This document shows, in pieces, positions 2,069 through 43,707 of a stretch of DNA of 44,431 nucleotides. A model generated the notes under the pieces. That model had not been told where the DNA came from. It was given only the letters and a program-made list of their open reading frames with translations, and searched no databases. The position numbers and the translations under genes were made by a program. This DNA is from Gemmatimonadaceae bacterium (GTDB lineage Bacteria > Gemmatimonadota > Gemmatimonadetes > Gemmatimonadales > Gemmatimonadaceae). Positions within the stretch are counted from its first letter, which is position 1, and the number at the start of each line of letters is the position of its first letter. Location of the stretch: contig DASYSS010000100.1 of assembly GCA_036003045.1 (NCBI GenBank), positions 1 to 44,431 on the forward strand. Reading direction: 5' to 3'.

Positions 2069-3256
2069 TCACGTGCAGGTGCCGGCCGCGGATGTGACGT
2101 TGACGGTGTAGCTCGCTGTGTGCCCCGCGACCGCGACCGTCCCAGCGTACGTGCCAAACTGGCTGATCGGCACTCGCACGACGACTGATCCGGATGAGAG
2201 CGTCCCCGCGAGGCTCGTCGGACCGATGACGCCCGGGCCGGAAATACCGAGCTGGTACGCTTGGTCAAGCTGCGCCGGCGTCGTGTTGATCGTGACGCAC
2301 ACTTCACTCGTCGTGGTCAGATGACGATACGTCGCCGTGCTGGAGAGCGTGAACGTTGCCGCGGGTGGCATCCACGTTTGGTCGACCGTGATATACCGAA
2401 CACTCATGTTGTGCTTCGCGGTGCCGCCGCCGTCCGTCGCCTTGTCCTCGGCGAACACGCCGAAGCAATAGCGGAGCGTCGTGGGGGCTCCACCCGCGCT
2501 GACGGGATTGAAGGCGTTGGCGTTGAGCGTGAAGCTGCCGTTCGACAGCACGCTCGACGTGTAGTCCCACGAGTTGCCTGCGACCTGCCCCGGCCCCGTA
2601 CCGCTCGGCCACGGCGTGTTATCCGTATTACCGCACTGGTTGCTCGGGCCGGGCTTGAGGACGCTCCCGGTGGCCTTGAACAAATAGGCATCCGCGATCG
2701 TGCCGCCGATGCTGAACGGCATCGACGCACCGTTCGACTGCGACGTGGCCGGCGGAGGCGCCGGAATCGTGATCGCCGGGCCGTGGTTCTTCAGGTAGAG
2801 ACTCATCGTCGACGTGGCGCGGTTGCCGGCAACGTCCTTTCCGTTCCAGACGATGCCGAGTTGGCCGTCGGGAAGGCCCGTCAGCGATGCGGTGTACGTA
2901 TTTCCGTTGCGGGTCACAGGGAGAGACTCCCCGCCGATCGACGCGCTCACGCTCGATGGATCGACCCCGCTCGCCGCCGCTCCGTTTGATCCAATGATGT
3001 CGTTGATGTCGACATGAATGCTGTTGATCGCGAAAGGACCGGTCAGCGACGACACCGGAAACGGATTGACAAAAAGCGGCGGCGTGTTGTCACTCACGGT
3101 CGGCGTCGTGTTTTCCACCAACGACGGCGGGACGAAGAAATCCGCCGGCTTGGCTTCGCAGCCCGCCAGGACGAGCATCGATGCAAGAACCGCTACCGAC
3201 GTGGCGTGGCGCGCGAGCGGCCGGCCGCCAAATGAGAATTCCGAGTCGAGTTTCAT
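2069..3256 (-). CDS. Ig-like-domain lipoprotein
   Basis: Predicted surface or periplasmic lipoprotein, 395 aa. The ATG at 3256 has a GAGGAA ribosome site 8 bases upstream, and the signal peptide ends in the lipobox LAGC. The mature protein begins with a Pro/Thr-rich linker, then a beta-rich region with Ig-like or cadherin-like features (residues about 70-170: DGQLGIVWNGKDVAGNRATS is typical of bacterial Ig-like repeats), followed by a central region with isolated Cys residues and a C-terminal beta domain ending TASYTVNVTSAAGTCT. No enzyme motif is visible. The start lies 11 bp after the stop of the outer-membrane protein gene, so the two are almost certainly one operon. A role as a partner or surface-exposed binding module of that barrel protein is an inference. 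Confidence 0.75.
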   Translation of the reverse strand: MKLDSEFSFGGRPLARHATSVAVLASMLVLAGCEAKPADFFVPPSLVENTTPTVSDNTPPLFVNPFPVSSLTGPFAINSIHVDINDIIGSNGAAASGVDPSSVSASIGGESLPVTRNGNTYTASLTGLPDGQLGIVWNGKDVAGNRATSTMSLYLKNHGPAITIPAPPPATSQSNGASMPFSIGGTIADAYLFKATGSVLKPGPSNQCGNTDNTPWPSGTGPGQVAGNSWDYTSSVLSNGSFTLNANAFNPVSAGGAPTTLRYCFGVFAEDKATDGGGTAKHNMSVRYITVDQTWMPPAATFTLSSTATYRHLTTTSEVCVTINTTPAQLDQAYQLGISGPGVIGPTSLAGTLSSGSVVVRVPISQFGTYAGTVAVAGHTASYTVNVTSAAGTCT

Positions 3257-3267
3257 TGAAGTATTCC

Positions 3268-4953
3268 TCAGAAGCCGGCGTGGATGGGAAGCCGGTACGT
3301 AAGGCCGGCTCCAAAGCGGAGATTGAGGTCGGCGTCGTTCGAGGTGCCCGCGCCGGTGTAGGTCATGTTCAAGCGCCAATTCAGATCCGACGACAGCGGG
3401 CGCTCGATGGCGACGCCGATGTTGGTCTTCCACGTCTCGAGCGTCCGATGCGACTGGTCGAGCGAAACGCCGAGCCGTGTGATCGGAACGAGGTCGAGGT
3501 AGTCGTAGGCATACGTGACTCCGCCGATCACCTCGACATGGGTCTTCCACAGAAACGACAAGCTCCGGCCGGCGCTCAGATCGTAGAACGTCCCGTTCAA
3601 GTCTCCGTCGACTCGCGAGAATGGTGAACCGGGTGTGCTGAACCGCTGGGTGTAGTGCAGTGTGTTGACGTGACGGCACGCCCAAATGCGCCACCCGGCC
3701 TGCGCGAATCCAAGCCCGACGCCCCAGCCCGGCGCGGTCTGCTCCCCGGTGAAGGCGCCGATGTTCGCCTGGTCGCCCGCCGTATGCGCGAATTGTTGAT
3801 ACCAGTTCTCCTCGATCCCCGCGCCCACGAACCACCCGCCGCCGCCCACCTTGCCGTGAGGGATCGCGCCCACCTTGGGCGGTTCCGTTCCACTCGGCGT
3901 TCCGGTCCCGGGCTTCTCCATCGTATGAGGACGCGTCGTGTCGATGGCCGGCGGAGCGCCGGTGCCAGGGCGTTCTTGGGTGTGCGGGTGCGTCGTGTCC
4001 GTTGGCGGCCGCGCCGGCGGCACACTGTCCTTCGGCGCCCTGGGCTGCGGCGTCGTCAGATGTTCTGTGCAGTCGATGATCGGGATTGGCAAACCATAAA
4101 TGTCAAGAATCTGATAGTAGATTCGCGTGAGGCGTGCGTGTTCGGCCTGCTCCCACTTCTCTTCCGCTTCGAGCACGCGGACGGCCGCCGTGTCGGATGG
4201 AACGCTACGAAGCGCCGCCGCCAAGCGATCGAAGACCTCGTCGTGGTAGTTGCGCAAAGCAGTCGCCGCGTCCTGGTTCTCGCGGAGCAGCTGAGCGATC
4301 GCCTTTTTCCACGCGTCGTACTCCGCTTGCGTGCAGAAAAACTTCGGAATGGACGGGATGCCCTGGAGGAACCGGGCGGGCCGCTTCAGGCCGGCCAGAG
4401 GATCCTTCTTCGGCGGGTCGACCGGTGGCGGATTTCGCCTCGCCTTGGGATCGCTGCAGTCGACGACCCGAGTCTTTCGATAGAGCTCGAGCTTCTCGTT
4501 GAGCGCCTTCTGCGGGTCCTGAAGGATCTCTTTGTTCGACTCCGACCAGAAGCCGGGCGCGAGCGGATCGATGCCCGCTTTGGCGAACGCACTACCGGGC
4601 CCGGATATTTCCGTTGAGCCGTTCACGCTTCCCTTGAACGCAGTCCAGTCGCGCTCGAGGTCGCCCAGCTCCGCGCGCAGTTCGGCCAACATCCGGCCCG
4701 CGGCCAGTTTGTCGGCGTTGTCGCAGTACACGCCGCCGACCGGCACTTCGTCGATCCGTTTGAGCAGCGCGGCAGCGCGATCCTTGAACTCGGCCGACTG
4801 GCGGCGATAAGACTCGACGCCGTTCTCGAAAAAATGCCACTGCGCGCCCGCGCTGGCGGCGTTCGCCGCCAGCCCGCCGAGCGCCATCGTCAGTACCAGC
4901 GCGATCCTCCCGGTGCCGTTCGCGGCAAGACGCAACGCTTTGGATCCGACCAT
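3268..4953 (-). CDS. Outer-membrane protein: helical N-domain, Pro-rich linker, C-terminal beta-barrel
   Basis: 561 aa with a signal peptide (hydrophobic ALVLTMALGGLAANAASAGAQ). Residues about 40-300 are alpha-helical with conserved-looking Cys residues and Glu/Lys/Arg-rich helices. A Pro/Thr-rich linker follows, holding two copies of a DTTxPHTxExPGTG unit. The last 200 residues alternate as amphipathic strands (GWFVGAGIEENWYQQF onward) and end in Phe, as outer-membrane barrels do. The ATG at 4953 has an AGGGAG ribosome site. It is first in an operon with the Ig-like lipoprotein and is divergent from the ECF sigma factor/kinase pair, which suggests an envelope structure controlled by that pair; this is inferred from gene order only. 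The function of the periplasmic helical domain is unknown. Confidence 0.7.
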   Translation of the reverse strand: MVGSKALRLAANGTGRIALVLTMALGGLAANAASAGAQWHFFENGVESYRRQSAEFKDRAAALLKRIDEVPVGGVYCDNADKLAAGRMLAELRAELGDLERDWTAFKGSVNGSTEISGPGSAFAKAGIDPLAPGFWSESNKEILQDPQKALNEKLELYRKTRVVDCSDPKARRNPPPVDPPKKDPLAGLKRPARFLQGIPSIPKFFCTQAEYDAWKKAIAQLLRENQDAATALRNYHDEVFDRLAAALRSVPSDTAAVRVLEAEEKWEQAEHARLTRIYYQILDIYGLPIPIIDCTEHLTTPQPRAPKDSVPPARPPTDTTHPHTQERPGTGAPPAIDTTRPHTMEKPGTGTPSGTEPPKVGAIPHGKVGGGGWFVGAGIEENWYQQFAHTAGDQANIGAFTGEQTAPGWGVGLGFAQAGWRIWACRHVNTLHYTQRFSTPGSPFSRVDGDLNGTFYDLSAGRSLSFLWKTHVEVIGGVTYAYDYLDLVPITRLGVSLDQSHRTLETWKTNIGVAIERPLSSDLNWRLNMTYTGAGTSNDADLNLRFGAGLTYRLPIHAGF

Positions 4954-5705: not shown

Positions 5706-8131
5706 CGAGTCCCCGCCCAAACCTCGATCCCTCGCAACCGACGGCCGAACGCTGGGCCGCGATTGAATCCGCATTCGGCGAGGCGTCCGGGCTGGCCGCG
5801 GCCGAGCGCGCCTCGTATTTCGCGGCGCTCGACCGGGACGATCCAGCGCTCGCCGCCGAGGTGAGGTCGCTCCTCGAGGCGAGCGACCCGTGGTGGATCG
5901 ATGAGTCGCTGGTCACGCTGCCGGTCGCTGAGCCGATGGTCCCTGACCAACGAATCGGCGCATACCAACTCGTTCGCGCCCTCGGCCGCGGCGGGATGGG
6001 CGAGGTGTGGCTCGCGCTGCGTGAGGGCCAGGATTTCCGGCAGCACGTCGCGCTCAAGATCGTGCGTGCCGGGATGGAATCGTCGGAGCTGGTCGCCGGC
6101 TTTCGGGCGGAACGGCAGATCCTCGGGTCGTTGAACCATCCCAACATCGCGCACTTACTCGATGTCGGCGAAACGGAAGACGGACGGCCATTCCTGGCAT
6201 TGGAGTTCGTCGAGGGCCACCAGCTCACTGACTACTGCGACGAGCATCGGCTGTCGGTCGACGACAGGCTGCGCTTGTTTCGAACGGTGTGCAACGCGGT
6301 CAGATTCGCGCACCAGAACCTGGTGGTTCACCAGGACCTGAAACCGTCGAACATCCTGGTGACGTCGGACGGCGTCCCGAAACTGCTCGACTTCGGGATC
6401 GCAAAAGTCCTGGCGCCGACCCGCTTTGACGCGGATCCGGCGAGTTCGGCGGCCGGGCCGGACCTCAAAGCGCTGACGCCGGAGTACGCGGCACCAGAAC
6501 AGATCGAAGGCGGGCCGACCACCACGGCGAGCGACGTCTACGCGCTCGGCGTCATTCTCTTCCAGCTTCTTTCGGGGCGGCGGCCATATCGTGATGTCGG
6601 CGCCGACCGGTCTGCACTGCTGGAAGCCATCCGCACCCGGCCGGTGCCATTGGCGAGTGAAGCCGTCGACTCGGACGGCGACGTTGAACGCGCGGGTCAA
6701 GTTGCCGCAGCCCGAAAGCTGTCGCCCGATGCGTTGCGGGCGAGACTGGCCCGCGACCTGGACGCCATCGTCCAACGCGCGCTGGCGCCGCTCGCCGCCG
6801 ACCGGTACTCCTCCGCGGAGCAGTTGGCAGCAGACGTCGAGCGAAGCCTGAACCGGTACCCCGTGAGCGCGCGTCCGCGAGCGCCGCGCTACGTCGCCGA
6901 ATGTTTCATGCGCCGTCATCAGGTTGGCGTCGTGTTGAGCGTCCTCGCATTCGCGAGCTTGGCGGCCTTCATCGTCACGGTCCTTCGACAATCGGCGGCG
7001 ATTCGCGAGCGGTCCGCGCAGGTCGAGAGCGAGCGCAAGCGCGCGGTGGCCGTTTCCTCGTTCCTTCAGGATCTGTTTCGCGGCGCCGACCCGGCGGAGG
7101 CAAAAGGCACGACGATCACGGCGCGGGAACTGTTGGATCGAGGCGCCGCGAAGATCGAGCGCGAGCTGGTCGACCAGCCGGCAGCGAAAGCTGATCTGAT
7201 GACGGTGATGAGCGAAAGCTACCAGAACCTCGGTTTGTATCCGCCGGCCGAACAGTTGGCGGAACGCGCGGTGGCGACGCTCCGCGCTCGCCACGCTCCG
7301 GCCGACTCGGCCTTCGCCGCCGCGCTGATCGCGCACGGAATGGCGCTGCACTACATCGATCGCACCCGCGACGCTCGCGTCGAGTACGACTCTGCGCTCG
7401 CGATCCGGCGCCGACTGGGCGACACGACGAGCGCCGTGGTCGCGCAGACGCTCGCCCTCGAGGGGTCGACGTTTCAGGACGACGGAGCGGACAGCACGGC
7501 GCGCCGGCTTTATAGCCGGGCAATCGGCTTGCGGCGCGCGAGTGGGGGAGGGGAAGTCACGACGGACACCGTGCTCGCGTTCACGCTCAACAACCTCGGC
7601 GTGCTGTTGCGGCGGAAGGGAGATCTGAACGGTGCGGATACGGCGTACCGCGAAGCGCTCGCGATTCGCGAGGCGACGCTGGGGCCGGATCACTTCGAGA
7701 CTCTGCGGACTCTCAACAACCTCGCGCTCGTGTCCGGGGCGCGCGGAAACCTCGCGGTGGCCGAGTCGTTACTGATCGTCGCGGCGGACGGATGGAAGCG
7801 AGTCGTCGGGGCCGATCATCCAGCGACCGCATTCGCTCTCAACAACCTGGGCAGTGTCTACATGAGGATGAACCAGCCGGCCAAGGCGCTGCGGTTGTTC
7901 AATGAGGCATTGGCCATCCGGCGGGCGAAACTCCAGCCGAGCGAGCCACTCATCGCGGTGACTTGGACCAACGTCGGCACGGCTCTACAAGCATTGGATG
8001 ATCGCCGAGGTGCGCTTCAGGCGTATCGTGCCGCGCTTGCGGTACGAGAATCGGTACCGGGACCGGAGACACCGGCGGTGGCGGACTTGAAGAAGGCGAT
8101 CGCGCGTCTCGAGAAGACGACTCGACGCTGA
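5702..8131 (+). CDS. Transmembrane Ser/Thr protein kinase with C-terminal TPR repeats
   Basis: 809 aa. After an 80-residue N-terminal helical region comes a kinase domain: glycine loop GRGGMGEVW (95-103), ATP-binding Lys119 in VALKIV, catalytic loop VVHQDLKPSN (208-217), metal-binding DFG (230-232) and activation-loop end TPEYAAPEQ. The catalytic loop has HQD where most kinases have HRD. A single membrane helix spans about 408-428, placing the kinase in the cytoplasm and the rest outside. Residues about 480-800 are tetratricopeptide repeats of the kinesin-light-chain type, with repeated NNLG and EALAIR signatures. It is coupled to the ECF sigma factor by a 4-base overlap. The TPR tail probably senses a periplasmic protein partner and the kinase acts on the sigma factor; both are inferences. 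Confidence 0.92.
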   Translation: MTSPRPNLDPSQPTAERWAAIESAFGEASGLAAAERASYFAALDRDDPALAAEVRSLLEASDPWWIDESLVTLPVAEPMVPDQRIGAYQLVRALGRGGMGEVWLALREGQDFRQHVALKIVRAGMESSELVAGFRAERQILGSLNHPNIAHLLDVGETEDGRPFLALEFVEGHQLTDYCDEHRLSVDDRLRLFRTVCNAVRFAHQNLVVHQDLKPSNILVTSDGVPKLLDFGIAKVLAPTRFDADPASSAAGPDLKALTPEYAAPEQIEGGPTTTASDVYALGVILFQLLSGRRPYRDVGADRSALLEAIRTRPVPLASEAVDSDGDVERAGQVAAARKLSPDALRARLARDLDAIVQRALAPLAADRYSSAEQLAADVERSLNRYPVSARPRAPRYVAECFMRRHQVGVVLSVLAFASLAAFIVTVLRQSAAIRERSAQVESERKRAVAVSSFLQDLFRGADPAEAKGTTITARELLDRGAAKIERELVDQPAAKADLMTVMSESYQNLGLYPPAEQLAERAVATLRARHAPADSAFAAALIAHGMALHYIDRTRDARVEYDSALAIRRRLGDTTSAVVAQTLALEGSTFQDDGADSTARRLYSRAIGLRRASGGGEVTTDTVLAFTLNNLGVLLRRKGDLNGADTAYREALAIREATLGPDHFETLRTLNNLALVSGARGNLAVAESLLIVAADGWKRVVGADHPATAFALNNLGSVYMRMNQPAKALRLFNEALAIRRAKLQPSEPLIAVTWTNVGTALQALDDRRGALQAYRAALAVRESVPGPETPAVADLKKAIARLEKTTRR

Positions 8132-8144
8132 CGGTAACCCACGG

Positions 8145-11100
8145 TCACCGAGAGAAGATGTACCGGAGCCCCTTGGGCGCTTCTTTCGCCTGCCAGAGCA
8201 TCGACGACGGGTAGGGGAGCAACGTGAGCTGAAGCGGCGACAGGATCCGCGGCAGTTGCTCGTGCACGTCGGCCCACGACTTCGCCCACCCTTCGTCGCT
8301 CGCATCCTCTTGATGCTTGTAGGCGTCGCTCACGTCGTACACTTCCGGAAGAGCAACGAAATAGTCCGCGAGCTTCTTCCAGTGGGCGGTCATCATCTCC
8401 GTCCAGTGCGCCTGCGCCGCTCGCACTGCCTCGAGCTGGTCTCTCGTCAGCAGCAGCGAGTCGGACTCGGTGGCGATCGATGCGTATGGGTCGAGGACGG
8501 TGCGGATGTAGCGTTTCACCAATTCATCTGACGTGAGCTTGGGGCCCGGGTGGCCGGCGCGGCCGGGGTTGAGCCAGCGTTCGAGCTGCTGTTCGGTGGC
8601 AGGGCGGCCGAGCGTCATCGACACGTCGAGCGTGAGGCGGAAGGGAGCGCGAAGGGTGTTGAGCGACGGGTTCGTCGTGCCGAAGCGCGGGTTCACTTGA
8701 TAAACGAACCGGCTGTTCGCCGCGTCGAAGCCGCGGACGTTGTACAGCACCGGATCGGCGAACGGCTGCGTGCCCCAGCCGCGCAGATGGTCGCTGCCGT
8801 GAAGCAGCTGATCGAGCCCGCCCAATGGGTTCGTCAGGTTGAGCGCGACGTTCTGCACGTTCTTCGGCAGATGGAGCCTCCCACCGGTGACGTTCACCTG
8901 CGCGTTGAATGACGCCGTCCACGGACCCTGGCAGCTGTTGCGCTGCGCGGCGGCGCCGAGTTGGCGCTCGAGGCAGTTGCGCGCGGCGCTCGACGTAGAG
9001 AACAGCGAACGAAGCGCCGACGCGACGCTCGTGTCGCGCGTGGTCGCCGGGTTGAAGACGAACGCGCGGTCGTTCGCGAGCCCATCCCCGTTTACATCGG
9101 AGCCGACGAGCGGCGTGAACGGCACGCCGGAGGAGAATCGTCCGAGGCCGGTCAGCGTGAAGCCCGCCCTGGATATGCCGAGCGAATAAATGAATGAATG
9201 CCGGATGTCGAAGTCGCCTCGGCTCCATGCAACCACATTCGGATCGCCGAAGGCCGAGCCGTCGAAGCCGCGATGCTGAGCGCGGTTGTCGGCGTAGGTG
9301 TACGCCAGCGACGTGTAGAGGAACGTGCGTTTGAAGGTCGTGTTGCGAGAGACGGTCGTGGTGAATTGGGCGGTGTGGGAACGAAGGTCGGAAACGTTGT
9401 CGACGACGCGGCCAAAGCTCTGGTCAACCCGAGCCGGCACGCTCGAGACCCCGCCGGTCGCTGGATCGATCGCCGTCGCGGGAACGAACACCGGTCGTCC
9501 TTCCTCACCCAGAGTGAATTGAGAGCTCGGCCGAAAATTCGCGTCGACGATCCCGGGCTGATTCAAGTTGAGCGCGTAGGTCCCCTCGAGCGCGTAGACG
9601 AAGTTGGCGAGGTTGGAGGAGAAGGAGAGATTGCCGCGCCAGCTTCGCGACGCGGTGTAACGCGAATCGAAGAGCTGGACGCCGGGAGCGGCGTCGGAAA
9701 AGACGGGGTTGGGCGCGCCCGGGACACAGCTCGACGGAATCGAGGATGGATCCGCGACGAACGAGGACCAGTCGGGCGTCGGAGCGGCGGCGCCGAGGCA
9801 GGTGATGCGCTCGATACCGTTGGGGAGACCAGTCGAGACGCGCGCCGTGGAGAGGAGCGCGGCGGGGAGCATGTTCCGGAATTCGCCGATGCCGCCGCGG
9901 ATGTACATGGTCGGCGCCAACGCGAACGTGCCGACCGGATTGAACATGATGCCGGTGCCGCCGGGCCGGCGCAGCCAGGTGAAGCCCAGCCGAGGACTGA
10001 GGCCCCACGTGTCGGGGGCGTGGTCCGTGCGGAGTCCAAACACTCGTTCCACATCCGGGTTGTACGCCGGCACGGCGTTGAACCGGTTCCCCTCGAGGCG
10101 CAGGCCGCCGAGCAGTTGGAGCGTCGGCGACACGCGCCAAAGGTCGCCGGCGGAGAGGAATGCGTTCCATTCGCTGCCGGTGCGCGTCGGGTCGTTGAGA
10201 GTTCTGGTATAGACCGTCGGGCGCCCGGCCTGAAGATCGCTCAGCGAGTTGAACGAGAAGGTGCCGTACTTGTTGGTCTCCAGATCCTGCGAGAAGCCGT
10301 CGAGCCGGACGTCGGTATCGAACTTGAGACGATGCGGACGCTTGGCGGACACGTAGCTCTGCATCGTGCCGATGTTCTCCCACGTCCACTGGCGAACGTC
10401 GGTCGTGAGTCCGGAGTTCCCGCCGAAACCCAAACTCGTCGAACCCGACGTGGCGTCGGGGAAGCTCGACGTCACGAGCACGCGGCCGTCGGGGAGCTGC
10501 ACGTACGGCGTCGCCTTGTTCTCCGAGTAGCTGAAGCCGCTCTTCGCGTCGAGGAGATAGTCGTCGTGGATGAACGTGGAGTAGTAGCCTTGCACCATGC
10601 CGATCGCCTGCCGGCTCTCGCCGCCGTGGCTCGGCGTTACCGTGGGCGACAGCGAGGTGGCCTGAGCACGCGACACCTTTCCGTAGAAGGTGATGGCCTC
10701 GGTGGTCGTGGACGGTTTGAGGTTCGCCCAGTCGTAGGGTGAGTGGTCGAATCGGGCGATGAGCGAGATGTTGTCGTTGATGCGATCGGGCGACGCGACG
10801 GGTCCGGCAACGGGCACGTGGGCACTCGACAGGAGGCTCCTGAGCCGGTCGACAGAATCCTGCGAGACGCCGGCGTGCGCGAGCAGGAGGGGATCGGCAG
10901 AGAGCAGCGAGGTGGCGTTCGAGAGGCTGCGGCCCCCCTGCACGCCGTAACTATAGAAGTACTTGTCGTCGGCGGACATCGAGCCGCCGCTGCCGAGGCT
11001 CGCGTTGAAGTTGGTGACGCGGGAGCCGAGGGCGCGCGAGACAGGATCGGTGTACTGCAGCGCCGGCGCGTCGAGCGTGAGATGCCCGCGCCGGTTGGTA

Positions 11101-11893: not shown

Positions 11894-11940
11894 ATGCTCT
11901 TGCGCCGTCGCGATAGCGGGGGAGGTACGGCGCTGTGGAC

Positions 11941-12042
11941 GTCCTTAGGGCGCTGATGTCCTTAGGGCGCTGACGTCCTTAGAGCGCTGACGTCCTTAGA
12001 GCGCTGACGTCCTTAGAGCGCTGACGTGCTTGGGGCGCTGAC
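11941..12042 (+). repeat. 17-bp tandem repeat array, six units
   Basis: Six direct units of 17 bp with consensus GTCCTTAGRGCGCTGAC. The first two read GGG at the variable triplet, the next three GAG, and the last is degenerate (GTGCTTGGGGCGCTGAC). There are no spacers between units. A related array with the core CGTCCTAAGRGCGCCGA lies at 23881-23965, in the same orientation. The array sits in the gap between the TonB receptor gene and the S9 peptidase gene. Confidence 0.9.
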
Positions 12043-12198
12043 GTCCACGCTCCGGCGAGCCCGAGCAACATGGCGTTCGAGGTGTGCGGTGACTCCAAAT
12101 CGTCGACACGACCCGTCGACTCCGCGATGACCGTTCGCTCGGCTGGCCCCGCCGCGGGCAGGCTCGTATGTTCGCGAGCATCGACCGCAACCGACGAC

Positions 12199-23872: not shown

Positions 23873-23880
23873 GAACGAGA

Positions 23881-23965
23881 CGTCCTAAGGGCGCCGACGT
23901 CCTAAGGGCGCCGACGTCCTAAGAGCGCCGACGTCCTAAGAGCGCCGACGTCCTAAAGGCGCAAC
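23881..23965 (+). repeat. 17-bp tandem repeat array, four units plus a partial one
   Basis: Direct units CGTCCTAAGRGCGCCGA: two with GGG, two with GAG, then a degenerate copy (CGTCCTAAAGGCGCAAC). It begins 8 bases after the permease stop. It is the same family, orientation and subvariant order as the array at 11941-12042 (15 of 17 positions shared). Confidence 0.9.
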
Positions 23966-26181: not shown

Positions 26182-26195
26182 TTGTGAACGGGAGT

Positions 26196-26316
26196 CGAGA
26201 ACTGCCGAACGCCGAGACTGCCGAACGCCGAGACTGCCGAACGCCGAGAATGCGAGACTTCCGAGCTCCGAAACTGCCGAACTCCGAGAACTGCCCGATG
26301 CCGAAGGGATTCCGAG
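26196..26316 (+). repeat. 16-bp repeat array R1
   Basis: Begins TCGAGAACTGCCGAACGCC and continues as units close to ACTGCCGAACGCCGAG, then variants with CTTCCGAGCTCCGAAA. It ends CCGATGCCGAAGGGATTCCG. Start and end closely match those of array R2 (29476-29620), so the two arrays are homologous along their whole length. It lies 15 bases after a stop codon. Confidence 0.9.
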
Positions 26317-26361: not shown

Positions 26362-26466
26362 ATGCAGCCGGCGCAAGCCGTCGTGCGCGACGTCATTGCC
26401 TGCCTCGCCGAAGCGATAGGCGTTCGGGATGCCGCGACCGTGCTCTCTCGCGACCGTGATCTCTAA
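26362..26466 (+). pseudogene. Truncated acyl carrier protein fragment
   Basis: 34 codons: starting MQPAQAVVRDVIACLAEAIG and ending SRDRDL, then TAA. This is how helix 1 and loop 1 of a phosphopantetheine-binding carrier protein read, but the frame stops just before the expected LGxDSL site, so it cannot carry a prosthetic group. The stop codon coincides with the left core of the attC-like site at 26461-26588, so the truncation is at a possible recombination boundary. The frame is open upstream to 26317 but without homology. Confidence 0.45.
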
Positions 26467-26588
26467 GGAACGCTGAACCTGTCAAGCGATGTGCGGTTGT
26501 TACGAAGTCTGCGGCTGCGCAATCTTATATGACTCGCTTGCAGCTTCGCGATCGCTTGAGGCTGCTAGAAACATCATCGTCGTTATGG
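26461..26588 (+). mobile_element. attC-like recombination site B
   Basis: 128 bp. The left arm CTCTAAGGAACGCTGAA and the right arm TCATCGTCGTTATGG pair as TAAGGAACGCTGA against TAACGA-CGATGA, with one extra base in the left arm, as in integron attC sites. The right core GTTATGG contains the start codon of the next gene. A TTATATGACTCGCTTGCAGC stretch lies in the middle. The left arm matches that of 31766-31887 over about 25 bases. No integrase gene is in this window. Confidence 0.45.
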
Positions 26589-26896
26589 ACTTCATCCGGA
26601 ATCCGACGCCGACGGAGCTCGTCGCCTTCGGTCGCAGTGTCCGCCGCCGCCGAGCTGCGGTGGGGACCGTTGTCGCGCTATCGTTCGGCGTAGCGGCGCT
26701 CATCCGCGACGGCGGGGGCGCGGGCTGGTGGTTCGCCGTTGTTTGGGGCAGCGCAGCGCTTCTCAGTGTCAGGATCTGGCGATGTCCGCGCTGCGGACGA
26801 CTTCTGGATCGCAACCTTCTGGCCCGCGAATGTTCTCATTGCTATCTGCGATTTGATGGCAATGTGCCGACGAGTCGTCCCGCTAACTCACGCTGA
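26585..26896 (+). CDS. Small membrane protein with C-terminal zinc ribbon (cassette-like gene)
   Basis: 103 aa. The N-terminal half has two hydrophobic segments (AAVGTVVALSFGVAALI and WWFAVVWGSAALLSV); the C-terminal half is a four-Cys zinc ribbon, WRCPRCGRLLDRN followed by ECSHC. The ATG sits within the right core (GTTATGG) of the attC-like site to the left, and the stop lies 8 bases inside the left arm of the attC-like site to the right. One gene filling the space between two such sites in this orientation is the layout of an integron gene cassette. Function unknown; zinc ribbons next to membrane helices often serve as small adaptors. Confidence 0.7.
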   Translation: MDFIRNPTPTELVAFGRSVRRRRAAVGTVVALSFGVAALIRDGGGAGWWFAVVWGSAALLSVRIWRCPRCGRLLDRNLLARECSHCYLRFDGNVPTSRPANSR

Positions 26897-27004
26897 CGCG
26901 GCGACGACCCTCAACGCCTCCCCCTCTCGTTGTTGAGCGTCGTCCTCTAGTGCGCGGGGGTGACCCTTCACCCTTGCCCTGAGCGCAGCCTCGCGTGGTT
27001 GAAA
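26881..27004 (+). mobile_element. attC-like recombination site H
   Basis: 124 bp from CGCTAAC (26881-26887) to GTTGAAA (26998-27004). Outer arms TAACTCACGCTGA and GCGTGGTTG pair with one extra base on the left, as at the other two sites. Unlike a simple attC, the interior holds its own strong stem (GACGACCCTCAACG against CGTTGTTGAGCGTCGTC, 26902-26943), so part may be a terminator. The next gene starts 6 bases after the right core. Confidence 0.4.
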
Positions 27005-27009
27005 CCGAG

Positions 27010-27471
27010 ATGGTGCCTACGACCGCACGTGCCGCAGTTGTCGCGAGTATTCTTTTCGGGGGCGCGTGTGCACGGCCAACCTATCGGCCGACACCGATTC
27101 CGTTGGCGCAACCGCCGGCATGGGCGACCGTGTTCGCGGCCCGCGGCTTCACAATCGCGGCCGATACGCAACACGTCGAGAATGTCGCCAGTGAACACGC
27201 GCTGCTGATTTGGTTCCTCACGCGTCACGAAGAAACGCGACAGGCCGATTCGCTGCGATTCAACCGAAGCCGCATTCGCCTCCTGGTCCGCTGCCACCCC
27301 CTCGGCTTTCGGAGCGTCAGCCAGGAGCTCGCACTAGACGACGCACCACCGATCTTTCACATGGAATGGCCCTGGGCGGGACCCAAGGCCCCCGCGTGGC
27401 GAGCACCAGAGTTAGGTGCTACCGATGATCGATTTCTTCGACAAACGTGCGCCGATCTCGGGCGGCCGTAA
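27010..27471 (+). CDS. Small putative lipoprotein, surface-adhesin-E-like
   Basis: 153 aa. N-terminal signal segment ending FGGAC, a weak lipobox. The body has the pattern of the surface-adhesin protein E family: a predicted strand FTIAADTQHVENV, a central HALLIWFLTRHEE and the RIRLLVRCHPLGFRSVSQEL strand pair with one Cys. This resemblance is by eye and moderate. The ATG at 27010 is used; a GTG at 26995 lies within the attC-like site. It begins right after that site, so it is the next cassette-like gene. Confidence 0.5.
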   Translation: MVPTTARAAVVASILFGGACARPTYRPTPIPLAQPPAWATVFAARGFTIAADTQHVENVASEHALLIWFLTRHEETRQADSLRFNRSRIRLLVRCHPLGFRSVSQELALDDAPPIFHMEWPWAGPKAPAWRAPELGATDDRFLRQTCADLGRP

Positions 27472-27671: not shown

Positions 27672-29444
27672 ATGAGCTGTGAGCTGAAAGGCGATAGGGC
27701 ATGGCGTCACATCGGTTGGATTGCGCCAGCGGAGGCCGGCGCTCTTATTAGGCTCCAACCCAACCGGTCGACGGCCACCATTCCACGCTCACTCACGCTC
27801 GGCGCGTTTGCGTCGACTCTCCTGTGCGCCACCGCCGCGGCGCAAACGTCGGTGATTCTCCCCGGGCCGTCGGGCCGAGCGAAAGCGAAGTTCGAGATTC
27901 GCGTTCCGCCGTCGGTGCGCAACGAGCCGCTCACGGGACGCGTCTACGTCGTCATCAGCGGCGACAGCACCCGCGAGCCGCGGTCGCAGATCGGCCGAGT
28001 GGGGACGCCGCTGTTTGGGCGTGACGTGGAGCGCCTCGCTCCCGGCGCGGCCGCTACCATAAATGGCGCGGATCTGGGGACTCCGGTGTTCGACCTGGCC
28101 GACATTCCGGCCGGCGACTACTGGATCCAGCCGTTCGTGAACGTCTACTCGGAGTTCAAGCGGGCGGACGGTCACACTCTATGGATGCACGACGACCAGT
28201 GGGAAGGGCAGAACTGGCCGCGCTCCCCCGGAAACATCTACGGCGCGCCGCAGAAGGTGCACTTCGATCCGAGGGCCGCGACGGTCGTGAAGCTGGTCGC
28301 CGACAAAGTGATTCCGCCGATTCAGGTCCCGGCGGACAACGAGTACGTGCAGCGATTCAAGTTCCAGAGTCCGTCGCTCACCAAGTTCTGGGGCCGGCCG
28401 ATCTACCTCGGCGCGACGGTGCTGCTGCCGCGCGACTACAAGACGGCGACGATCAGCTATCCCGTGAATTACATCCAGGGGCATTTCGGTCTTGGTGCGC
28501 CGTATGGATTCGACCCGGCGGGGGGCGGCCGAGGAGGCGCGGCGTTCAGAGATGCGTGGTTGTCCGACAACTTCCCGCGCATGATCGCCGTCACCTTCCA
28601 GCATCCGACGCCGTACTTCGACGATTCGTACGCCGTGAACAGCGTGAACATGGGCCCGTACGGCGACGCGATCATGAACGAGCTCATTCCCGAGGTCGAG
28701 AAGCGTTATCGCGTGATCAGGGAGCCCTGGGCGCGGTGGCTGTCGGGCGGATCGACGGGTGGATGGGAGTCGCTCGCGCTTCAGATCTATCATCCGGACT
28801 TTTTCGGCGGCACGTGGTCGTCGTGTCCCGACCCCGTGACGTTCAGCGACGTCGAAGGCGTGAACATGTACAAGGACGTCAACGCCTTCTACAAGAATTA
28901 CAGCCAGTGGCAGCTCACGCCGACCGTGAACTCGCGCGAGGTCAACGGAGAGATTCGGCAGACGGCACAGCAGCGCTACTGGATGGAGCTGGTGAACGGC
29001 ACGCACGGCCGCTCGGGCACTGGCCAGCAAGACATTTGGCAAGCGGTGTGGGGGCCGATCGGCGCCGACGGTTTCTTCAAACCGGCGGTGGATTCGCGCA
29101 CGGGCGCGATCGACCACACGGTGACGCAGTACTGGAGCGACAACTACGACCTCTTGCACTATCTCCAGAAGAATTGGACGACTGTCGGCCCGAAGCTCGT
29201 GGACAAGATCCACGTCTACGTCGGCAACATGGACAGTTTCTTTCTCGACCGCGCGACGCGCGAGCTGCAAGCCTGGATGAAGACGACGACGAATCCGCAC
29301 TACGAGGGGTACTTTGTGTACGGCGATCAGAAGCCGCACTGCTGGAGCGGGCCGGGGACGAGCGCGGACCGGCTGCGGGAGATGGCGGAGTTCGGGCTGC
29401 GGAAGATGCCGGAGGGGATGACGGCGGCGTGGTGGAAGTATTGA
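27672..29444 (+). CDS. Secreted esterase, enterochelin esterase/putative esterase family
   Basis: 590 aa. The ATG at 27672 is followed by a long N-region and then the signal segment TLGAFASTLLCATAAAQ; a nearer start codon is lacking, so the true start is uncertain. Residues about 60-200 form a beta-rich N-terminal domain, and the catalytic alpha/beta-hydrolase domain follows: SYPVNYIQGHFG, RMIAVTFQHPTPYFDDSYAV, nucleophile elbow SGGSTGGWES and the late His of GDQKPHCW. This is the esterase D/enterochelin esterase type layout, widely found as exported ester hydrolases. The acid residue is not certain. It ends 31 bases before repeat array R2. Confidence 0.82.
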   Translation: MSCELKGDRAWRHIGWIAPAEAGALIRLQPNRSTATIPRSLTLGAFASTLLCATAAAQTSVILPGPSGRAKAKFEIRVPPSVRNEPLTGRVYVVISGDSTREPRSQIGRVGTPLFGRDVERLAPGAAATINGADLGTPVFDLADIPAGDYWIQPFVNVYSEFKRADGHTLWMHDDQWEGQNWPRSPGNIYGAPQKVHFDPRAATVVKLVADKVIPPIQVPADNEYVQRFKFQSPSLTKFWGRPIYLGATVLLPRDYKTATISYPVNYIQGHFGLGAPYGFDPAGGGRGGAAFRDAWLSDNFPRMIAVTFQHPTPYFDDSYAVNSVNMGPYGDAIMNELIPEVEKRYRVIREPWARWLSGGSTGGWESLALQIYHPDFFGGTWSSCPDPVTFSDVEGVNMYKDVNAFYKNYSQWQLTPTVNSREVNGEIRQTAQQRYWMELVNGTHGRSGTGQQDIWQAVWGPIGADGFFKPAVDSRTGAIDHTVTQYWSDNYDLLHYLQKNWTTVGPKLVDKIHVYVGNMDSFFLDRATRELQAWMKTTTNPHYEGYFVYGDQKPHCWSGPGTSADRLREMAEFGLRKMPEGMTAAWWKY

Positions 29445-29475
29445 GGCGAGGGGAGGGGGACGAATGCTGTGGGAT

Positions 29476-29620
29476 CGAGAACTGCCGAACGCCGAGACTG
29501 CCGAAGTCCGAGACTGCCGAACGCCGAGACTGCCGAACTCCGAGGCTTCCGGGCTCCGGAACTGCCGAGCTCCGGAACTGCCGAACTCCGAAACTGCCGG
29601 GTGCCGACGGGATTTCGGCA
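29476..29620 (+). repeat. 16-bp repeat array R2
   Basis: Starts TCGAGAACTGCCGAACGCC like R1, runs as ACTGCCGAACGCCGAG and ACTGCCGAGCTCCGGA variants, and ends CCGGGTGCCGACGGGATTTC. It lies in the same orientation as R1 and likewise just after a stop codon on the plus strand. Confidence 0.9.
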
Positions 29621-29638: not shown

Positions 29639-29675
29639 GAGTGTTATACGGCAAAAAGCTCGCAGTATAACACTC
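29639..29675. promoter_or_regulatory. Perfect 11-bp inverted repeat upstream of methyltransferase gene
   Basis: GAGTGTTATAC and GTATAACACTC, perfectly complementary, with a 15-base loop. AT-rich arms are rare in this DNA. It lies 64 bases before the methyltransferase start and overlaps TATAAC, a possible -10. It could be an operator or a terminator of the esterase gene. Confidence 0.5.
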
Positions 29676-29738
29676 TCAATCTCTGATGAGACGTCGGCAC
29701 TTTGATAGCGCGTCTGAGTCAGGGCGGCATCTATTTCG

Positions 29739-30436: not shown

Positions 30437-31228
30437 ATGGGCAAGGCTCGACGTAAACGGGCGGCGCGCGCCGCGGTCCGCTCCACGCCTGCTCGACGTG
30501 CGTCGCTGGCCGTCCGCACTCGCGCGTTCATCATTGGCGTGCTGCCCGTGGTCGCGATCGTGCTCGGCACCCGGCAACTGCTCGCCGAGGCCTTTCGGAT
30601 TCCGAGCGGCAGCATGGAGCCAACTCTTCTCGTCGGCGATTGGCTCTTCGTCAACAAGCTCCGTTTCGGGCCGCACATCCCATTCACGAGTCGTTCGCTA
30701 CCGGGCTATGCCAGCCCCAAGCGGGGCGATGTCACCGTCTTCATCTCGCCGCCGCAGGACATGACGATTCGAATATCCGCCGACGAGGTCACACCGACGT
30801 TGGTGAAGCGCATCGTCGGCGTCGCCGGCGACACGCTCCTCATGCGCCACGGGGAGCTGATCGTCAACGGCGCCGTGGCATCGTCACCCAACTCGTTTCG
30901 TCTTCCGGACTCCCTCGCGGACCAGCCGCAGCCGATCTTCGCCTGGCAGCATCAGGTCGAGATTCGCGGTTCTCGATTCGGTGAGCCGGTACCGGTTCCC
31001 AGCCTCCACGAGTGGGGGCCGCTCGTCGTGCCCACCGGCATGTTCTTCATGATGGGCGACAACCGCGACAACTCCGTCGATAGCCGGTACTACGGACCCG
31101 TACCGCGCGCAAACCTGCGTGGTACGCCCATGTTCGTGTACTACTCATATGATCCTGACCGAGGCGTCGACTACATCCGCGCCGTGACCGCCATCCGATG
31201 GCGCCGTCTCGGCGACTGGATCCGCTAA
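30437..31228 (+). CDS. lepB: Signal peptidase I
   Basis: 263 aa. A basic N-terminus and one membrane helix (FIIGVLPVVAIVLG, 31-44) precede the catalytic Ser59 in SGSMEPTLL, the base Lys124 in LVKRIVGVAGD, and box E MGDNRDNSVDSRYYGPV. It removes signal peptides from exported proteins on the outer face of the inner membrane; this window encodes many substrates. The ATG at 30437 has CCGGAG upstream; the frame is open from 30350 but overlaps the methyltransferase. An insertion between the Lys and box E (GSRFGEPVPVPSLHEWGPL) is longer than in the minimal enzyme. It may be one of several copies in the genome. Confidence 0.93.
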   Translation: MGKARRKRAARAAVRSTPARRASLAVRTRAFIIGVLPVVAIVLGTRQLLAEAFRIPSGSMEPTLLVGDWLFVNKLRFGPHIPFTSRSLPGYASPKRGDVTVFISPPQDMTIRISADEVTPTLVKRIVGVAGDTLLMRHGELIVNGAVASSPNSFRLPDSLADQPQPIFAWQHQVEIRGSRFGEPVPVPSLHEWGPLVVPTGMFFMMGDNRDNSVDSRYYGPVPRANLRGTPMFVYYSYDPDRGVDYIRAVTAIRWRRLGDWIR

Positions 31229-31324
31229 GGCTCCCCGGAATTCGTCGCATCAAATTGCTCGGTATCGGCAAACTCTTAAGGTCCTTTGCAGTTTAGTCAA
31301 CGCGTCATACGGCTCGATGGCATC

Positions 31325-31771
31325 ATGCCAAACACAGAACGTCTGGCGCGCGCGGGGATAGTCACTGCCGGACTTGCAGTGGCCGGCGGTGTCATCGGTG
31401 GCCTTTGCGGAATCGCAGCGATTCTCGCCGTCGCCATCATTGAGGAGGGTCTGCATGCTTTCGCGTCCCACGAGGTCCTCTCAATTCTGAGCATGGGTGC
31501 GGCGGTGGGGGCGGCTGCGGGAATTGTAGGCGCCCCGGCCTTGGCGTGGGGATTGCTGCGACGTGTTCCGCTCGGCCGGGCGATTCTTGTAACCGCACTC
31601 GGCACGGTCGCCGGCGCGATCGTTGGAGAGTTGTTGCATCCCTTTAACCCGTACGCGAGCGCCGTACCCGGGGTCATCGCCGGGGGGCTCGCCGGATTCC
31701 TCATCGCTGGCGTCGGCCTCCGTCTCAGACCCGGCCGCGCCACGTCAGGCTCCGGGGACAGAGCCGTTTAA
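31325..31771 (+). CDS. Polytopic membrane protein, Gly/Ala-rich, 148 aa
   Basis: Four predicted membrane helices (IVTAGLAVAGGVIGGLCGIA, ILSMGAAVGAAAGIVGAPAL, AILVTALGTVAGAIVGELL, VPGVIAGGLAGFLIAGVGL) rich in Gly-xxx-Gly pairs; no recognised family. A TTTGCAGTTTAGTCAACG motif ends about 25 bases before the ATG. The TAA stop lies inside the left core of the attC-like site at 31766, where cassette genes usually end. The ATG at 31325 is chosen because upstream residues are not helix-like and lack a ribosome site. Confidence 0.6.
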   Translation: MPNTERLARAGIVTAGLAVAGGVIGGLCGIAAILAVAIIEEGLHAFASHEVLSILSMGAAVGAAAGIVGAPALAWGLLRRVPLGRAILVTALGTVAGAIVGELLHPFNPYASAVPGVIAGGLAGFLIAGVGLRLRPGRATSGSGDRAV

Positions 31772-31887
31772 CGAACGCTGAAGGTGACAAGGCCGCTACT
31801 GATTGCGCTGCGCTCCGAGCAGCGTTTCTATATAATTGCCTTGCAGCTTAGCCAAGGTGGTAGCATCGAAGTGATGCGACGTTAGGG
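31766..31887 (+). mobile_element. attC-like recombination site A
   Basis: 122 bp from GTTTAAC (31766-31772) to GTTAGGG (31881-31887). TAACGAACGC on the left pairs with GCGACGTTA on the right with one extra left base, as in attC. Inside are a CGCTGC/GCAGCG hairpin, TATAAT (31831-31836) and CCTTGCAGCTTAGCCAAGG. The left arm nearly matches site B. The upstream gene ends in the left core; the next frame starts with GTG directly after the right core. Confidence 0.5.
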
Positions 31888-33369: not shown

Positions 33370-33810
33370 ATGATTCAGCGGATCACGATCACGGTCGCAA
33401 ATACCTTCGTCTTCAAGGCGAAGCTCCTGATCGATCGCGCGCCCAACACCTGCGCTGCCTTCACCGCCTTGCTTCCTTATCGCCAGCGCTTGATTCACGC
33501 CCGCTGGAGTGGCGAGGCCTGCTGGATTCCGCTCGGCGACTACCAGCTCGGCGTCGGCCATGAGAATCACACGAGCCATCCGTCGGCGGGCGACCTGCTA
33601 TGGTATCCCGGCGGAATCAGCGAAACCGAGCTACTGTTCGCGTATGGCTCCGCGGTCTTCGCGAGCAAGGTCGGTCAGCTCGCGGGCAATCACTTTCTCG
33701 AGGTCGTCGAGGGCGGAGAGCGACTCGAGGAAATGGGGCGCTACGTGCTGTATCGTGGAGCGCAGGACATTCTGTTCGAAGCGGAACTCCTTTCCGTCGC
33801 GCCCGGCTGA
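33370..33810 (+). CDS. DUF3830 family (cyclophilin-like fold) protein
   Basis: 146 aa cytoplasmic protein whose body matches the DUF3830 pattern: RITITVANTFVFKAKLLIDR, then APNTCAAFTALLPYRQRLIHARWSGEA, GDLLWYPGGISETELLFAYG and GNHFLEVVEGGERL. The fold is cyclophilin-like; a role in metabolite binding or hydrolysis is suspected in the family but unproven. Its ATG abuts the stop of the lipoprotein gene, so they are cotranscribed. It is convergent with the second kinase, 34 bp apart. Confidence 0.85.
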   Translation: MIQRITITVANTFVFKAKLLIDRAPNTCAAFTALLPYRQRLIHARWSGEACWIPLGDYQLGVGHENHTSHPSAGDLLWYPGGISETELLFAYGSAVFASKVGQLAGNHFLEVVEGGERLEEMGRYVLYRGAQDILFEAELLSVAPG

Positions 33811-36208: not shown

Positions 36209-36327
36209 GCCACAAGGTGGGCCGTGAATGAGGGAAGGGGAAGAGCTTTGTCGGGCGCGCGGTTCGCTGCCCGGCCGCTTGAAAGAACGATGCTACGGCA
36301 TTGATTGTTTGCCGTTGCGCGCGAACT

Positions 36328-36359
36328 TTTATATGATGTCTTTGCAGGTTGGCTAAGGA
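36328..36359 (+). promoter_or_regulatory. TATA-rich plus CTTTGCAGGTTGGCTAAGG element
   Basis: In the 281-bp gap between the kinase and a DinB gene: TTTTATATGATGTC followed by CTTTGCAGGTTGGCTAAGG (36340-36358), then AG. TATATGAT may be a -10 box, and AAGGAG may be a ribosome site in front of a four-codon frame (ATG at 36371). The same two-part element is seen at 26524-26553 and 31828-31857. Confidence 0.4.
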
Positions 36360-36489
36360 GTTGGGCCGACCATGGAGACCTCGTGATCCGTCTCGACGGA
36401 CTGAAGCTGTTCGTAAGCGGCATCGCCGAGACGGGCGTCAACCCTTTTGATAGGGCCCCGTGGTCGGGTTGAGAGTAGCCCAGGCCTCG

Positions 36490-37017: not shown

Positions 37018-37105
37018 ATCTCGGCGGGCCGGGCCAATGCCGGGTTCGACGGACAACCACCCTGAGAGTACTCTAAAGTTTGCCACAATGGAGCGAGGAG
37101 AGGTG

Positions 37106-38023
37106 GTGACTCGATTACCGGTCGTCCTCACGCTGCTGGTCAGCCTCGCCGCCTGCTCGGTACCCACGGAGGGCGGTTCGACCAACGACCCAAGCCGGCT
37201 GCCGTACGTCGTGAGCCCGGCGGGCGTTCGCATTCACGGGACTTCGCGGCTTCTTGTCATCCCCACGCGTTTCGCCGACGGTCCCGCGTCTCCGCTCACG
37301 TCGTCGGACATCGCCGCGCAGCTATTCAGCGGTGCGACCGGCGGGGCGGGGCCGCTGGCGGAGACCTATAGCCTGGCGTCCGGTGGAACGTTCACCCTGC
37401 GCGGCGACGTGACGCGATGGGTTACGACGTCGGTCACCTTCGCCGCCGCCAACGCGCGCGGCGTCATCACCGAGTCGGGGCTCGGCGACCATACGTTGCT
37501 GGCGCTGCAGGCCGTGGATGCGGACGTGGATTTCGGCCTCTACGACAACGACGGTCCGGACGGCATCCCGAACAGCGGCGATGACGACGGCATCGTGGAT
37601 GGCGGCGTGGTCATCCTCCACTCGGAGCCCAACGAGTACTGCGACGCCAGCGTGCGTGGAACTCATCCCGTTTCTGTGACTCAGTGGCGTCCCAACGGGG
37701 CGCGGTTTCGCACACAGGATCCCTCGCGCAAAGGACGGTTCATCGAGGTCGGTGCGTACACGATTCTATCGGCGACGGGCTGCTCGTCGAGCATCGTCCA
37801 ATCGCACGTCCTCGCGCACGAACTCGGCCATCTCGCACGTGCGGATATCGCCGGTCCGGTGATGGGGGCGCAAGGCTCCCGAATTCCGAGACTGCCGAAA
37901 CGCCGAGACTGCCGAGGTCCGAAACTGCCAAACGCCGAAACTGCCGAACGCCGAGACTCCGAGACTACCGAACACCAAAGAAGCCGAACTCCGAGATTGC
38001 CAAACACCGAGCGGCGGCTGTGA
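37106..38023 (+). CDS. Lipoprotein M6-like metalloprotease, truncated by a repeat array
   Basis: 305 aa as read. The GTG at 37106 has GAGGAG upstream and opens a lipoprotein signal peptide (PVVLTLLVSLAAC); ATG at 37088 is an alternative. The body follows the M6/immune-inhibitor-A pattern: LLVIPTRFADGP, AAQLFSGATGGAGPLAETYS, a Gly/Asp-rich GLYDNDGPDGIPNSGDDDG, and the zinc site HVLAHELGHL. Normally another 100 or more residues with the third zinc ligand follow, but here about 12 residues after HELGH the frame runs into the 16-bp repeat (LPKRRDCRGPKLPNAETAER and on), translated for 45 residues. The enzyme is therefore almost certainly inactive. Confidence 0.7.
   Translation: MTRLPVVLTLLVSLAACSVPTEGGSTNDPSRLPYVVSPAGVRIHGTSRLLVIPTRFADGPASPLTSSDIAAQLFSGATGGAGPLAETYSLASGGTFTLRGDVTRWVTTSVTFAAANARGVITESGLGDHTLLALQAVDADVDFGLYDNDGPDGIPNSGDDDGIVDGGVVILHSEPNEYCDASVRGTHPVSVTQWRPNGARFRTQDPSRKGRFIEVGAYTILSATGCSSSIVQSHVLAHELGHLARADIAGPVMGAQGSRIPRLPKRRDCRGPKLPNAETAERRDSETTEHQRSRTPRLPNTERRL
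37883..38010 (+). repeat. 16-bp repeat array R3, inside the M6-like frame
   Basis: About eight units, for example ACTGCCGAAACGCCGAG, ACTGCCAAACGCCGAA, ACTGCCGAACGCCGAG, then more degenerate units with ACACCAAAG. It directly follows the zinc-binding part of the metalloprotease and encodes its last residues. Confidence 0.85.
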
Positions 38024-40129: not shown

Positions 40130-40135
40130 CGGCCG

Positions 40136-40317
40136 GACGCCGAGACGGCTGGACTCCGAAACTGCCGAACTCCGAAACTGCCGAAAGCCGAGACGCCGAA
40201 ACGCCCGAGCGCCGGGCCTTCCGAACGACAAAACTGCCAAAGGCCGAGATGCAGAGTGACCTCGCAGTTTCGGACTAGGGCAGTTTCGCTAGGGCAGTTT
40301 GAGTCGGCAGTTTCGAG
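40136..40317 (+). repeat. 16-bp repeat array R5 with an inverted tail
   Basis: Direct units such as ACTGCCGAACTCCGAA and ACTGCCGAAAGCCGAG up to about 40248, followed by the same motif in reverse orientation (GCAGTTTCGGACTAGGGCAG, then GGCAGTTTCG) to 40317. The two halves can fold on each other. It lies between convergent M28 and cupin genes, where it could serve as a bidirectional terminator. Confidence 0.8.
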
Positions 40318-43548: not shown

Positions 43549-43570
43549 GGAAGCATACGGCGGGCGGTTC

Positions 43571-43650
43571 CGGAGGGCGAGACTGTTCAGTCCGGAGGGC
43601 GAGACTGCCGAACGCCGAAGGTGCCGAACGCCGAAACTTCCGAGCACCGA
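43571..43650 (+). repeat. 16-bp repeat array R6
   Basis: Two copies of TCCGGAGGGCGAGACTG 21 bases apart, followed by ACTGCCGAACGCCGAAG, GTGCCGAACGCCGAAA and related units. It lies upstream of the LuxR-type gene, so it may contain or replace that gene's promoter. Confidence 0.8.
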
Positions 43651-43654
43651 GGTT

Positions 43655-43674
43655 CCGTTGCAGCTTAGCGATTG
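43655..43674 (+). promoter_or_regulatory. CGTTGCAGCTTAGCGATTG motif
   Basis: Another copy of the recurring motif, directly after array R6 and 34 bases before the start of the small membrane protein gene. Unlike the copies at 31839 and 36340, no TATA-rich stretch precedes it. Confidence 0.35.
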
Positions 43675-43707
43675 CTACGCAGCCCCCCACACGAAAAGGG
43701 AACTGAA

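Follow-up and report, generated by a model that had tools for sequence, protein, structure and literature searches.

Integrons are bacterial gene-capture systems, the cassettes of which each comprise a usually promoterless gene and, after it, an attC site. The bottom strand of attC forms an imperfect hairpin in which an extrahelical base sets strand polarity, and the integron integrase recognizes this folded site, with the GTT core of the R' box as the point of recombination. Clusters of attC sites lacking an integrase (CALIN) are a known class, and are thought to be degraded integrons (PMC9024848); integrons have also already been listed for Gemmatimonadota (PMC8618304). The window analysed here is the whole of contig C100 (44,431 bp), from a draft genome of 5.37 Mb in 106 contigs, and we are very confident that it holds what erosion has left of a chromosomal integron cassette array belonging to a Gemmatimonadaceae genus. 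The presence of attC sites without intI on this contig, of intI on another contig, and of arrays beside intI in congeners, together identify an eroded, CALIN-like array that stands apart from its integrase. Two strong sites and one half site lie on the 44-kb contig, where a CALIN is defined by two or more attC sites with no intI close by; at 5.2 kb between sites 1 and 3, the IntegronFinder distance rule might nevertheless split the cluster. The sequence-only reading, which had proposed an integron-cassette layout and perhaps a relict array, is thereby supported, with the R' boxes of sites 1 and 3 mutated and the other sites partial; of the three findings that it had named as refuting it (no covariance match to attC, no integrase in the genome, and left arms lacking paired right arms), none holds. 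The features of the array are as follows.

26461 to 26562, forward strand: attC site 1, of which the bottom strand folds; covariance model R1 47.1 bits, E 1.4e-11; nhmmer E 6.9e-12; R'' CTCTAAG, L'' CTGtCAAGCGA, L' TCGCTTGCAG, R' decayed to TTGAGGC.
26585 to 26896, forward strand: zinc-ribbon gene, a cassette gene (103-aa ORF).
26881 to 27004, forward strand: attC-like site 2; R'' CGCTAAC and L'' GCTGaCGC (26892-26899) on the left, L' GCGCAGC (26983-26989) and R' GTTGAAA (26998-27004) on the right.
27010 to 27471, forward strand: possible next cassette gene, a 153-aa ORF directly after the site 2 core, with a lipoprotein-like start.
27717 to 27756, forward strand: possible relic of an attC centre, GGATTGCGCC..GGCGCTCTTATTAGGCTCC; nhmmer 6.9 bits, E 0.15.
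31223 to 31310, forward strand: decayed attC candidate, starting at the stop of the signal-peptidase gene.
31325 to 31771, forward strand: cassette gene, a 148-aa ORF with its stop TAA in R'' of site 3.
31766 to 31865, forward strand: attC site 3; R1 63.9 bits, E 1.4e-16; R2 66 bits; R'' GTTTAAC intact, L''/L' largely intact, R' decayed to GGTAGCA.
33370 to 33810, forward strand: DUF3830 gene, with a homologue 83% identical in congener G002.
36300 to 36366, forward strand: right two thirds of attC site 4; nhmmer E 1.6e-6.
43655 to 43676, forward strand: truncated attC right arm, with the 12-mer TTGCAGCTTAGC.

Sites 1 and 3 carry the identification. R1, a covariance model built from 15 congener sites with the window's own genome excluded, and searched with filters off, returned both as strong matches (E 1.4e-11 and 1.4e-16), after which the next match in the window reaches only 14 bits. 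Genome-wide, the sole further strong match lies at C42:1032-1131 (53 bits), and the next best scores 21 bits versus 47-64 for the strong sites; exact copies of AACGCTGAANNTGNCAAG are likewise confined to three places (window 26469, window 31774 and C42:1040). Sites 1 and 3 fit the attC inverted-repeat structure (R''/R' and L''/L') at 44-66 bits with partly mutated R boxes and an extrahelical t or a, and, judged from sequence and modelled structure, both are true attC sites of an integron. The left arms of all three sites in the sequence-only reading lie exactly where it had placed them, and the single extrahelical base that it described there is seen in sites 1, 3 and 2. Its right ends, at 26588 and 31887, were wrong: the right arm of congener sites is TTGCAGCTTAGCTAGGGCGTTAGGY, which sets the true ends at 26562 (site 1) and 31865 (site 3), and we dropped the longer arms because alignment with congener sites shows that the wrong GTT had been paired. 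The presence of genus-specific right arms also answers the concern that the left arms might belong to a dispersed repeat with no right arms. Folding of single sites was uninformative (z -0.4 to -2.7 only), and missed the full attC pairing of site 3. The third attC of the genome, on contig C42 (L006:57-806 and 1032-1131), is about 1 kb from the contig end, where it adjoins a transposase-like ORF, with a multicopper-oxidase-like gene downstream of it (names for both assigned by eye).

The 103-aa protein encoded after site 1 has a hydrophobic N-terminal half and a C-terminal CPRC...CSHC zinc-ribbon. Its gene had been described as starting in the right core of site 1 and stopping in the left arm of site 2; the stop codon (TGA, 26894-26896) is indeed inside that arm, but the ATG is outside the right core, 22 bp past the true end of site 1. 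The protein has no Pfam or NCBIfam match above cut-off, only three weak matches (at most 23 bits) among 58 relatives, and no relative in plasmid and viral searches, and such a want of family, plasmid or viral relatives is what a cassette gene would show. Neither Pfam nor NCBIfam gave a family for the 153-aa ORF beyond site 2.

Of the three sites originally noted, site 2 is the weakest. It is somewhat unlikely, in our estimation, that it is not an attC at all, such that only sites 1, 3 and 4 are real and the zinc-ribbon gene has an attC on just one flank. Consistent with that alternative, neither R1 nor the wider model R2 detects 26881-27004, the genus right-arm matrix gives its right arm less than -20 bits, and, given the left arm, an equal arm arises in about 4% of random segments. 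Against it, the left core TAACNNACGCTGA is found just twice in the 5.4-Mb genome, at 26884 and, on the same strand, at 31769 in site 3 (reversed control 0), and its copy at 26884 coincides exactly with the 3' end of the gene downstream of site 1, in the same orientation; among congeners it occurs in 36 places, mostly at attC sites found by the models. The right core earlier assigned to GTTGAAA at 26998-27004 is plausible, as L'' pairs with L' and leaves over one extrahelical A, although the genus models miss the site. The rare left core, the paired right arm, and the position of the site at the 3' end of the gene after site 1, together make site 2 a probable attC that has diverged or decayed. 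The zinc-ribbon gene would then have been captured as a cassette, flanked by attC site 1 and by a second, divergent attC.

Further relics extend the array rightwards. Site 4 has largely lost its left arm, and keeps an intact R' (GTTGGGC); the right-arm matrix ranks 36325-36366 top in the window, at 41.3 bits versus 13.0 for the maximum of 60 simulated windows. The 12-mer TTGCAGCTTAGC occurs in two places genome-wide, 31841 and 43658, both in the window and on the forward strand, and its positions in congeners coincide with attC sites; 43658 is probably a further attC relic. The candidate at 31223 is probably a decayed attC relic, not significant alone (right-arm matrix 5.4 bits versus a null per-window maximum with mean -1.1 and sd 3.9; nhmmer E 0.66), and R2 missed it together with site 2. 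The match at 27717-27756 is weak and also not significant alone, since scores of up to 9.6 bits arise among 20 shuffled windows. The relics span 26.4 to 43.7 kb in a single orientation. Counting against an array are the many intergenic gaps of the region in which no attC is recognizable, a 2.4-kb kinase gene that interrupts the stretch from site 3 to site 4 on the opposite strand, the mismatch of site 2 with the genus model, and the location of array and integrase on different contigs. The signal peptidase I, methyltransferase, esterase and kinase genes of the window may be resident. For lepB, copies 82% identical in G002:C6 and 77% identical in G003:C172 are not accompanied by any strong attC in the flanking stretches retrieved, so that it may be a resident gene rather than a cassette. 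The DUF3830 homologue of G002, by contrast, sits between attC sites. The 148-aa ORF before site 3 has no Pfam match, and a scan of the window with Rfam found no match.

Repeats of other kinds were seen alongside. Imperfect 16-bp tandem repeats of a CGAGACTGCCGAACGC family occupy 26190-26300, 29470-29600, 37880-38000, 40130-40300 and 43560-43650; a metalloprotease-like ORF (37088-38023; weak Peptidase_M6, HELGH) runs straight into one such array, and it appears as if the repeat has replaced its C-terminus. The 17-bp tandem repeats GACGTCCTTAGAGCGCT and GACGTCCTAAGGGCGCC, at 11938-12046 and 23879-23962, form related arrays 12 kb apart, and a perfect 11-bp inverted repeat (GAGTGTTATAC / GTATAACACTC) lies at 29640-29680, between the esterase and methyltransferase genes.

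The integrase is indeed absent from the window, as first read: a profile search found no TIGR02249 match on contig C100. A search of the genome, however, recovered an intact intI on a different contig, C81, encoding 335 aa and scoring 394 bits on TIGR02249 versus a curated cut-off of 265. Over almost its whole length the protein matches the IntI4 structure 2a3v (E 3.7e-77), its catalytic R, K, H, R, H and Y are invariant among five relatives, and its nearest named relatives belong to Gemmatimonadaceae MAGs (60-63% identity). A conserved AATTAGCGTT-type sequence downstream of intI in three genomes, in the same place in G004 and G005, is probably the attI. In both of these congeners the cassettes lie downstream of intI and in its orientation.

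The crossover core has fared differently in this genome and in its congeners. The R' triplet reads TTG in site 1, GGT in site 3 and GCG in the C42 site, such that GTT is wanting in three of three strong own-genome sites, yet is kept in 39 of 46 congener sites; none of three would retain GTT by chance with a probability of about 0.007 (hypergeometric). Sites 2 and 4 do have GTT. Given its loss, we class sites 1 and 3 as decayed attC and not as working sites; all three strong sites remain attC-like but have probably lost the crossover point, and the cassettes are probably locked in place. The genus integrase would have inserted the window cassettes, which may no longer be excisable.

Alternatively, the window could be part of a complete, active integron that the assembler split, and no relict at all. 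Draft genomes are known to break integrons into CALIN and In0 (PMC9024848), the genome's own intI is intact, contig C81 ends four bases past the attI-like GTT core, and the C42 site is itself near a contig end. We nonetheless hold this to be quite improbable, as the strong sites of the window are buried 12-18 kb deep in a 44-kb contig, site 4 and the 43655 relic are truncated, and the loss of GTT from every strong own-genome site is at odds with its retention in congeners. Returning to an eroded array, the surviving sites might represent a survivor set, wherein an active integrase removes cassettes with a working core and only those with mutated R' triplets remain. We think this unlikely, and offer it tentatively; if true, core mutation would constitute a route from captured cassette to permanent chromosomal gene.

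Intact versions of this integron are kept in sister species of the same genus. A pattern drawn from sites 1 and 3 (GAACGCTGAANNTGNCAAG, 35-65 bases, CTTGCA) and searched in 98 genomes has three matches in this genome and 13 spread over three further species of its genus, with no match outside the genus among those 98 and none for the reversed control. The congener consensus is NNCTAAC-GAACGCTGA-AGCTGaCAAGG...CCTTGCAGC-TTAGCTAGGG-CGTTAGRY, over 91-121 bp. Copies are in tandem and beside intI in both G004, where R1 finds 27 sites, most within a stretch (C36:825-9314) whose end is about 500 bp from intI at 9819-10733, and G005, where intI occupies C42:11046-11984 of that genome and attC sites follow from about 9799 downwards. 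The alignment of 15 congener sites folds into R-box pairs, an unpaired spacer, a long L-box stem and a variable hairpin, with one extrahelical base in the L-box stem (unpaired column 83 of the consensus). Across 46 congener sites, 92.4% of cells are paired versus 78.9% in shuffles, double-changed cells number 182 versus 55 (0/500 shuffles as high), and slid controls of the structure are 21-42% paired. Covarying R boxes and L stem, and the extrahelical base, match the known features of attC bottom-strand folding. It is accordingly extremely improbable that we are dealing with dispersed palindromic repeats of a REP or MITE-like kind that have nothing to do with integrons, a notion prompted by two similar copies in the window, one on another contig and other intergenic repeats in the region, given that the congener elements form head-to-tail arrays beside intI, about one gene apart (G004, G005), that their covarying structure carries the attC R box, L box and extrahelical base, and that strong copies genome-wide number only three.

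Variants were also encountered among the congeners. G002 (100% complete) has 30 attC matches, for example in L060 (G002:C27) and L188 (G002:C22), and no integron integrase at E 1e-60; its attC sets are large CALINs. A longer attC subtype (about 120 bp), found repeatedly in G004 and G002 (e.g., L061:7321-7440, 7743-7861, 3184-3304 and 9195-9314), shares the R and L boxes but has another long loop.

The element is real, but its kind is already known. As in the CALINs defined with IntegronFinder (PMC9024848), the window has several attC sites with genes between them in one orientation, and no intI on the contig; it differs in that this genome has an intact intI elsewhere, and in that its sites are sparse and most are partly decayed. 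The arrays of G004 and G005 resemble the chromosomal integrons of Treponema, in which cassettes also lie downstream of intI in the same orientation, and the window recalls T. phagedenis, in which the system was lost and attC remnants were left (PMC3607928), although here the phylum and attC family are different, and intI is still in the genome. With sedentary chromosomal integrons (PMC8618304; PMC8352920) the locus shares lineage-conserved attC sequence and structure, and genes mostly of unknown function; unlike those, the window array is eroded, and the congener arrays run to tens of sites. What this case supplies is a genus-specific attC family (46 aligned sites), its intI and an attI-like site, and a demonstration that lineage-specific models can still find attC relics without a GTT core. 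As the decayed array is found in a sister species of array-bearing congeners, the erosion of a chromosomal integron can be traced within one genus, and for a member of the CALIN class this within-genus comparison is unusually clear.
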